Below, one piece after another: positions 49,785 to 51,473 of a stretch of DNA of 64,000 bases. The translations under genes and the position numbers were made by a program. Source of the stretch: Fervidicoccus fontis Kam940 (GTDB lineage Archaea > Thermoproteota > Thermoprotei_A > Sulfolobales > Fervidicoccaceae); the NCBI RefSeq assembly GCF_000258425.1, contig NC_017461.1:310001-374000 (forward strand). Reading direction: 5' to 3'. Positions within the stretch are counted from its first letter, which is position 1; every line of letters begins with the position of its first letter. A model generated the notes under the pieces. That model saw nothing but the letters and a program-made list of their open reading frames with translations, was not told the DNA's origin and made no database searches.

Positions 49785-50051
49785 CCTCCTAAAATAGACA
49801 AAACGTTTGGTGTTTAATTAGTTACACATTTTTATAATTAATTTTCAATAAGAAACTAATAAACATAACCTGTTAAACTATAGTTGCTTTAAATTTATTA
49901 GATATTAGTATCTTTTCTTCTTGTAGAAAAAGTTTAAAAATAAAAAAGCTTAAATCAATTGCAATCTTATTTATTTATAAATCCCTTTATTTCTTTAAAA
50001 ATATTAAAGTCAAGTAAGTTTATTAGGAATATTATGCTTATGGTGTGCTAT

Positions 50052-50654
50052 ATGAAAAAAACAAATTCGATATCAAAACCTGTAGTACAAATAGAAAATA
50101 TTGTAGCAACTGTTACACTTGATCAGCAACTGGATCTGCATGAAATAGAAAGAAAAGTTCCCAGAGTAGAATATAATCCTGATCAGTTCCCTGGGCTTGT
50201 TTTCAGGCTAGATAGACCAAAAATAACTGCACTAATTTTCAAATCAGGAAAAATGGTTGTAACAGGTTCAAAAAGTACCCAAGAATTGATAACTGCAGTT
50301 AAGAGAATTATAAAAACATTTTATAATCATGGGATAAAAATTACAGGAAGACCTAAAATACAGATACAAAACATCGTTGCTTCTGCCAATCTTAATGTAG
50401 ATGTTAATTTAGAAGATGCAGCATATAAATTAGAAAATAACATGTATGAGCCAGAGCAGTTCCCTGGACTAATTCATAGAATGACCGACCCATATGTGGT
50501 ATTACTGATATTTAGCAGTGGTAAAATGGTAATTACTGGTGCTAAAAGGGAGGAAGAAGTTTCAAAAGCAGTCGAAAACATATATAAGACTTTAAAAGAA
50601 TTAGATTGCCTCGTAACGAAAAGCGAAGATGAGCAAGAAGAAGAATTTTTTTGA
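50052..50654 (+). CDS. tbp: TATA-binding protein
   Basis: General transcription factor that bends promoter DNA. Two direct repeats form the saddle: [12 protein letters not shown] to [13 protein letters not shown] and [12 protein letters not shown] to [13 protein letters not shown], each with the [13 protein letters not shown]-type segment. The C-terminus is acidic (DEQEEEFF), as in other archaeal TBPs. The ATG at 50052 is chosen over a much longer frame because GGTG lies 7 bases before it and the 200-residue product is normal. Confidence 0.97.
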
Positions 50655-50805
50655 ATGAACAAAATAGAACTATTTTTTGATCTGACATCGTTCTCGTCTA
50701 TTAATGGGTTTTTTCAATTGTAATACAATTACAAAGTCTCATGGCAAGAAAATTCGTAAATTTAATAAAAATTCAATAATATATTCAACCGTTATCTTTT
50801 TAAAC

Positions 50806-50817
50806 TTTTTATATAAT
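50806..50817 (+). promoter_or_regulatory. TATA box of the tRNA 5'-half gene
   Basis: TTTTTATATAAT centred about 25 bases before the first base of the tRNA half, the standard archaeal distance. The upstream AAAC could be a BRE. This suggests the half is transcribed by itself. Confidence 0.6.
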
Positions 50818-50835
50818 TTTAATAAATTCGATTGT

Positions 50836-50884
50836 GGGCCCGTGGCTCAGCCTGGTAGAGCGGCGGAGGGCCTTGCCTAGTACC
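50836..50884 (+). tRNA. Split tRNA gene, 5' half (anticodon not encoded; Lys-like)
   Basis: Bases 50836-50866 give the tRNA acceptor strand GGGCCCG, positions 8-9, a perfect D-arm (GCTC AGCCTGGTA GAGC) and the start of the anticodon stem (GCGG). Then, instead of a loop and 3' half, comes a GC-rich stretch AGGGCCTTGCCTAGTACC and a T-rich terminator. No T-arm follows. This is the layout of archaeal split-tRNA 5' halves, whose leader pairs with that of a separately encoded 3' half. The D-arm and the GCGG stem resemble tRNA-Lys, but the identity is not certain. A truncated tRNA relic is the alternative. Confidence 0.72.
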
Positions 50885-50898
50885 TTTTCTTTTTTCTT
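50885..50898 (+). terminator. T-rich terminator after the tRNA 5' half
   Basis: TTTTCTTTTTTCTT directly after the GC-rich leader of the tRNA half, as expected for an archaeal RNA polymerase stop signal. The remaining bases up to 51122 are AT-rich and hold no other feature. Confidence 0.5.
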
Positions 50899-51122
50899 TC
50901 ATAAAAACTTGTAAAATTTTTACAATAAGAAGCTTTTTGAAATAATATTTTTCATTTTTTTAACATTTATGCAATTTTCTTTTTACTTTTTATTAAAAGA
51001 ACAAAAGGAAATAAAAATACCTTTTTGTAGGAATATTTATTTAAAAATCGCGAAAAATTAATAAACATCTGATAAAAATAATTATTTAATAATTATTTAT
51101 AAAGTAAAAAGGTGGAAAAGGG

Positions 51123-51473
51123 ATGCAATCTCAAAGTAGTATCGAAGAAGGAAAAAATATTAAAAAACCGCAAAAAGCAGGAATTTTTGAAGAAAATGGA
51201 GTACTATATGTAAATGGAGATGAGTATATAATTAGAGTTACCTCAGCTTTGGCCAACAGCACAAGACTTTTCATCCTAAAATACATTAAAGAGCATGAAT
51301 CAGATGTCGGTGAAATAGCTGATCTAATTAAACAAAGTAAAGCTAATGCAAGTGCGCAAATAAAGAAATTAGAAGAAGCAGGACTAATAAGAACGACTTA
51401 CAAGCCAGGACAAAGAGGAGTTAAAAAAATTACTGTTAGCAATGTTAAACAAATAGTGATAAACCTGGAGTAA
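51123..51473 (+). CDS. ArsR-like winged-helix regulator
   Basis: 116 residues. After a Lys-rich N-terminus the winged helix-turn-helix lies at about 40-105 (NSTRLFILKYIKEH, DVGEIADLIKQSKANASAQI, KKLEEAGLI), with the wing TTYKPGQRGVKKITV. No metal-binding Cys pair is visible. The ATG has a good AGGTGG site. It stands alone after TBP and the tRNA half, and its target is unknown. Confidence 0.75.
   Translation: MQSQSSIEEGKNIKKPQKAGIFEENGVLYVNGDEYIIRVTSALANSTRLFILKYIKEHESDVGEIADLIKQSKANASAQIKKLEEAGLIRTTYKPGQRGVKKITVSNVKQIVINLE

Follow-up and report, generated by a model that had tools for sequence, protein, structure and literature searches.

A 2014 review (PMC4033280) counted only seven hyperthermophilic archaea with split tRNAs, which are assembled from separately encoded halves. 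In Staphylothermus marinus and S. hellenicus the split tRNA is tRNA-Lys(CUU), whose halves are ligated between positions 30 and 31 (30/31) and encoded on one strand with about 4.5 kb between them (Chan et al. 2011, PMC3218864). Nanoarchaeum equitans, from a different phylum-level lineage, splits the same isoacceptor at the same site, with distant halves on opposite strands; its tRNA-Glu(CUC/UUC), moreover, has a single 3′ half common to two 5′ halves, joined at 37/38 (PMC3218864 Table 1). Here we describe a comparable locus in a 64,000-nucleotide window of the Fervidicoccus fontis Kam940 genome (NC_017461.1; G000:C1:310001-374000; guanine plus cytosine content 33%). The genome is a single contig of 1,319,206 bp, 99.92% complete. 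Window positions 50836-50884 almost certainly encode the 5′ half of a tRNA-Lys(CUU) whose gene is split and whose halves are joined by trans-splicing, and the predicted 3′ half is located at G000:C1:272924-272855.

The Fervidicoccus tRNA resembles that of Staphylothermus in isoacceptor, ligation site, mature halves of 31 and 43 nucleotides, a canonical bulge-helix-bulge (BHB) motif with flanking helices (hBHBh′) and 13 nucleotides of perfect trans-pairing. In both, the 5′ half adjoins the gene for the TATA-binding protein (TBP). The two differ in family, leader sequence and spacing, as the halves here lie on opposite strands with 88 kb between them. Moreover, the 5′ half is downstream of TBP on the TBP strand, whereas in Staphylothermus it is divergent and upstream. 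Split tRNAs are thus already known. For the three that we predict in this genome, and for what appears to be a family-wide trait, we found no earlier report; a literature search on split or trans-spliced tRNAs in Fervidicoccus returned nothing relevant, the Fervidicoccus genome paper and the tRNA databases being outside that search.

The two halves of tRNA-Lys(CUU)

The 5′ exon was read directly from the sequence as 31 nucleotides, GGGCCCGTGGCTCAGCCTGGTAGAGCGGCGG (50836-50866, plus strand), comprising tRNA positions 1-30. By parts it is GGGCCCG-TG-GCTC-AGCCTGGTA-GAGC-G-GCGG (acceptor strand, positions 8-9, D-arm and positions 26-30). The trailer that follows, AGGGCCTTGCCTAGTACC (50867-50884, plus), supplies the third base of a bulge, one strand of the h′ helix and a 13-nucleotide trans-pairing segment, CTTGCCTAGTACC. 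Next is a T-rich run, TTTTCTTTTTTCTTT (50885-50899, plus), which is probably a transcription terminator. The TATA-like boxes CTTTTTAAAC (50796-50805) and TTTTTATATAA (50806-50816), on the plus strand about 20-40 nucleotides 5′ of the tRNA start, probably constitute an archaeal promoter. An initial annotation, made from the letters of this stretch, had described a tRNA 5′ half with a GC-rich stretch and a T run at 50806-50898, and had noted that no T-arm or 3′ acceptor follows. The sequence bears this out to within one or two bases, and we found no T-arm or 3′ acceptor between the half and the next gene at 51123. ARAGORN called only a tRNA-Ala and a tRNA-Leu in the window, leaving the 5′ half uncalled, and an Rfam search of 50300-51400 gave no match.

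We searched the whole genome for an acceptor/T-arm ending able to pair with GGGCCCG. This gave 12 places: ten complete or intron-bearing tRNAs, one tRNA-Trp and one Lys partner. The partner, which comprises a leader and positions 31-76, is a separate gene on the minus strand (272924-272855) of the contig that carries the 5′ half on the plus strand at 360836. It reads GGTACTAGGCAAG-A-GCTC-GCCG-AG^GCTCTTAACCCGTAGGTCCCGGGTTCAAATCCCGGCGGGCCCG-CCA, where the caret marks the inferred cut. Over 13 bases the leader GGTACTAGGCAAG is perfectly complementary to CTTGCCTAGTACC, and four more pairs form beyond a single bulged A. As the annotation had anticipated, a 3′ half with a complementary leader and a CGGGCCC ending thus exists elsewhere in the genome; the one unpaired A had not been foreseen. 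Because of this extra A, a genome search with the complement of the full 18-nucleotide trailer (up to three mismatches) matched only the 5′ half itself, and the 3′ half was located via its acceptor (CGGGCCC) and T-arm. As the predicted partner exists, the 5′ half is not a chance resemblance. A second Lys-like 3′-half candidate, at 1188646 (L046/L142), was rejected, as hand reading identified it as an intron-bearing tRNA-Trp(CCA).

Together the halves fold into a canonical BHB, as had been expected. In detail, helix h (GAG:CTC) is followed by the bulge GG^A, a 4 bp central helix (CGGC:GCCG), the bulge AG^G and helix h′ (GGGC:GCTC, with one G-U pair), such that two 3-nucleotide bulges flank the central helix; beyond h′ are the single bulged A and then the 13 bp duplex. 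This structure has 24 standard pairs and a free energy of -37.1 kcal/mol. Unconstrained co-folding of the whole halves gave the same leader duplex, with the surroundings of the bulges arranged slightly differently. When cut sites are placed by the canonical rule, between the second and third base of each bulge, GGGCCCGTGGCTCAGCCTGGTAGAGCGGCGG and GCTCTTAACC... join into a 77-nucleotide tRNA-Lys(ctt), including CCA, with a standard cloverleaf (ARAGORN on the joined exons). Both the split in the anticodon stem at 30/31 and the Lys identity agree with what had been deduced from the 5′ half. A central-helix 3′ strand that can pair with CGGC was present in all 19 of the interrupted 3′ halves examined.

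Partial tRNA fragments left by integrations occur in these archaea (PMC3218864), and the 5′ half could accordingly be a functionless relic, either a truncated tRNA or an att-like fragment of an integrating element. We regard this as very improbable. A relic would not be expected to have a partner 3′ half whose leader complements its own trailer, nor an arrangement that recurs in other genera while the leaders co-vary (see below). The 5′ exon is intact, is not identical to the corresponding part of the nearest full tRNA and has no full copy in the genome. The initial annotation had pointed to a full tRNA with an identical 5′ end as the mark of a relic; the nearest full tRNA, Lys(UUU), differs from the joined Lys(CUU) at four positions, anticodon included.

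For a trans-spliced tRNA-Lys(CUU), each half would be transcribed from its own promoter, the annealed halves would adopt the hBHBh′ structure described above, a heteromeric splicing endonuclease would cut both bulges, and a ligase, expected in archaea to be RtcB, would join position 30 to 31 before the tRNA is charged. We identified two PF01974 proteins in the genome, one of alpha type and one of beta type. The first, EndA-like (733112, plus strand; 203 amino acids, with an N-terminal domain), has Tyr, His and Lys residues that were aligned by eye with those of Methanocaldococcus (M.) jannaschii EndA. The second (1097724, minus strand; 150 amino acids) has the beta subunit as its best NCBIfam match, below the cut-off of that model, and lacks the His and Lys. 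The alpha and beta subunits presumably assemble as a heterotetramer. Chan et al. (PMC3218864) correlated heteromeric endonucleases with split tRNAs, and the two proteins are consistent with the heteromeric endonuclease of split-tRNA archaea.

Several considerations weigh against the split tRNA-Lys. The case is built from genome sequence, the promoter and terminator were assigned by eye, and neither half reaches the cut-off of the Rfam tRNA model. The search for the machinery covered endonuclease genes (PF01974). In addition, tRNA-Lys(UUU) might, in principle, read AAG by wobble, so tRNA-Lys(CUU) need not be essential.

Split tRNA-Gln and the tRNA set

We compiled a tRNA census from pattern searches (every match to a conserved T-arm motif), Rfam and hand reading of intron-bearing genes. 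The contiguous tRNAs are 42 above the Rfam cut-off, together with an initiator Met (two introns) and a Trp (introns), and amount to 43 different tRNAs by hand reading. No contiguous gene for Lys(CUU), Gln(CUG) or Gln(UUG) was found among the 46 Rfam candidates, the T-arm-motif matches and the hand-annotated intron-bearing tRNAs. The absence of Lys(CUU) is the missing isoacceptor that the initial annotation had suggested looking for. With three split tRNAs added to the 43, the set of 46 is complete, and the splits fill exactly the gaps.

The genome has no contiguous tRNA-Gln of any kind in this census. Instead, we identified one Gln 3′ half, GGGAGGAGAGGAGGCAGGAGAGAT^CCCCCGCGACCGGGGTTCGAATCCCCGCCCGGCTACCA (about 1009051-1009145, minus strand; L047/L230), that is common to both isoacceptors, and a pair of 5′ halves (L144/L145): ...GGGGCTCTGG^ACCTCCCCCTCTCCTCCC for CUG (from 102158 down, minus strand) and ...GGGGCTTTGG^ACCTTCTCCTCTCCTCCC for UUG (from 963128 down, minus strand). 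Both 5′ halves form a BHB with the single 3′ half, with CTCT or CTTT opposite AGAG in the central helix and bulges GGA and ATC. The splice is at 37/38, the BHB structures have free energies of -40.9 and -40.2 kcal/mol, near the unconstrained minimum, and each joined molecule reads as tRNA-Gln. Both Gln isoacceptors would thus be made from two 5′ halves and one 3′ half. This is the shared-3′-half, 37/38 architecture of N. equitans tRNA-Glu. Gln is split in N. equitans as well, though there Gln(UUG) is interrupted at 32/33 (PMC3218864 Table 1) and here both isoacceptors are interrupted at 37/38.

The Gln tRNAs bear on whether the Lys halves are needed. A contiguous Lys(UUU) gene is present (L003), and if its tRNA carries a modified U34 and also reads AAG, then the Lys halves, real and still annealing, could be dispensable. 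We consider this improbable. The long open reading frames (ORFs) of the window contain 312 AAG codons (against 741 AAA, 190 CAA and 113 CAG), and selection appears to have kept the leaders matched across genera. Furthermore, the same architecture gives the only tRNAs found for CAA and CAG and must therefore be functional in this organism. If every Gln tRNA is trans-spliced, then a tRNA that is essential and in constant use can be supplied from split genes.

In all eight Fervidicoccaceae genomes examined, Gln 3′ halves stand with no 5′ exon beside them, and the 5′ halves are elsewhere. One of these genomes, G100, has two Gln 3′ halves (L233 and L235), whose leaders fit their own CUG or UUG 5′ half (L221 and L226), respectively, in contrast to the rest of the family, where one 3′ half is shared. 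Shared and private 3′ halves provide a natural test of partner discrimination by RNA leaders. A second Gln 3′ half, with the leader GGGGTCAGGAGCCGAAATC..., was also found in G101 (G101:C33:110358; L236/L285), and no 5′ partner for it was identified in that 91%-complete genome. Outside the Fervidicoccaceae, four genomes of family f2 (G001-G004; L239-L242, L259-L262, L269-L271) apparently assemble both Gln isoacceptors, CUG and UUG, with a single 3′ half that serves two 5′ halves, and in further genomes of families f3 and f4 (for example, G022, G033, G047, G048 and G074) the Gln halves are widely separated or adjacent.

Distribution, leader matching and origin

Across 214 genomes of the order, with up to 1500 nucleotides of upstream context for each 3′ part, the tRNA-Lys(CUU) 3′ part is interrupted at 30/31 in 50. 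Introns of 13-32 nucleotides account for 31 of these (29 in family f7, one in f4 and one in f1). In 17 the same strand carries no 5′ exon within 1500 nucleotides upstream (only 39 nucleotides, to the contig end, in G059), and in two a 5′ exon is nearby upstream, at 156 (G097) and 299 (G073) nucleotides. As a positive control, the same searches recovered both Staphylothermus pairs, of S. hellenicus (G075) and S. marinus (G076), at the coordinates of PMC3218864 Table 1. Split Lys occurs in five of eight Fervidicoccaceae genomes, four of which have both halves (G000, G096, G097 and G101) and one the 5′ half (G095). A 5′ half identical, flanks included, to that of G095 (G095:C154, position 9162) is found at the TBP locus of Fervidicoccus sp. 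ARK-14 (L057, POCB01000097.1). Similar AT-rich boxes occur at comparable distances 5′ of the 5′ halves of G095-G097 and G101, and pyrimidine- or T-rich stretches occur 3′ of several. In F. fontis Kam940 itself AT-rich TATA-like boxes precede both Lys halves, as read by eye.

Where the halves are adjacent on one strand, as in G097 and G073, read-through is possible, and one long or permuted precursor (a giant intron or a circularly permuted tRNA) processed in cis could be imagined. For F. fontis this is hardly credible, given 88 kb between halves on opposite strands in an assembly taken to be correct, and in G096 and G101 the Lys halves are on different contigs.

We compared leaders using one genome per genus (eight genera for Lys, five for Gln(UUG)). 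Leaders diverge between genera yet stay complementary within each genome. The cognate Lys trailer-leader duplexes have a mean of -38.8 kcal/mol, versus -23.9 over all assignments. For Lys the true pairing outranks all others among 40,320 assignments, and for Gln(UUG) all others among 120, where the permutations are not independent trials because the genera are related. There are exceptions among the Gln leaders, which are of low complexity and C/G-rich: the CUG halves of G000 and G100 score better with the leader of G101 than with their own.

The TBP gene (49959-50654, plus strand; PF00352, E 7.8e-65) and the tRNA-Lys locus are conserved neighbours. Many of the TBP loci examined in the order have a tRNA-Lys gene nearby, be it intact, interrupted by an intron or present only as its 5′ half; in Fervidicoccaceae it is downstream of TBP. 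The 5′ half stands alone near TBP in G000, G095 and G096, and adjacent halves are found there in G097. Genes with a 30/31 intron are near TBP in L056/G098 (of the Fervidicoccaceae; 26-nucleotide intron, on the strand opposite to TBP), L064 and L079/G065. Such intron-bearing relatives (L056/G098, G065 and family f7) share with the split tRNA the gene, the site and the kind of BHB at the 3′ site. Unlike the split gene, they are contiguous, and their 13-32 nucleotide intron is removed in cis. In G097 (G097:C9:427908-428125; L210/L163) the halves are on the same strand, and a T-rich stretch and an AT-rich box are found in the 156 nucleotides between them. This arrangement resembles the A. pernix tRNA-Asp and is a possible intermediate between an intron and a split gene.

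Whether split tRNAs are ancient or of late origin is disputed. Given the intact, 30/31-intron and 5′-half-only states of the TBP-linked locus, the split Lys most likely arose from an intron-bearing gene. On the most economical reading, a 30/31-intron gene near TBP would have gained a terminator and a promoter inside its intron, and the 3′ half would have moved off later. As Fervidicoccaceae and Desulfurococcaceae differ in their leaders and in where the gene lies relative to TBP, we infer that at least two separate splits likely occurred at this intron site.

In combination, we consider it probable that both Gln codons depend on trans-spliced tRNAs throughout the Fervidicoccaceae, and that in most of the genera with data so does the reading of AAG by tRNA-Lys(CUU). 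The same view holds that the splits are derived, from intact through 30/31 intron (G098) and adjacent (G097) to dispersed, and that the leaders act as matched address codes, private in G100, where no two 5′ halves use the same 3′ half, and shared where two 5′ halves rely on one. A whole family thus appears to have split tRNAs, with many more in the order. The TBP locus shows intact, intron, adjacent-split and dispersed-split states, and with these four states at one locus the intron-to-split route can be tested in cells as well as by comparing genomes.

Neighbouring and minor features

Downstream, the region is limited by an ArsR-family helix-turn-helix gene (51123-51473, plus strand; PF01022, E 7.9e-10). 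Among the contiguous tRNAs, the initiator tRNA-Met with two introns (L044; G000:C1:115573-115689, plus strand) is below the Rfam cut-off and is misnamed as Ser by ARAGORN. The tRNA-Trp(CCA) (L142; G000:C1, about 1188646-1188867, minus strand) appears to have an intron at 30/31 and has a second, long one at 37/38, the latter with box C/D-like motifs (TGATGA and CTGA). T-arm-like matches at 324994, 343928, 363689, 462510, 645474, 875215 and 1030241 were rejected as tRNAs. Two of them, L138 (G000:C1:645474, plus strand) and L139 (875215, minus strand), are copies of GGTTCAAATCCTATATAAGTTTATATTAGTTGGTGC with a T-arm-like motif, and are perhaps the ends of a repeated element.
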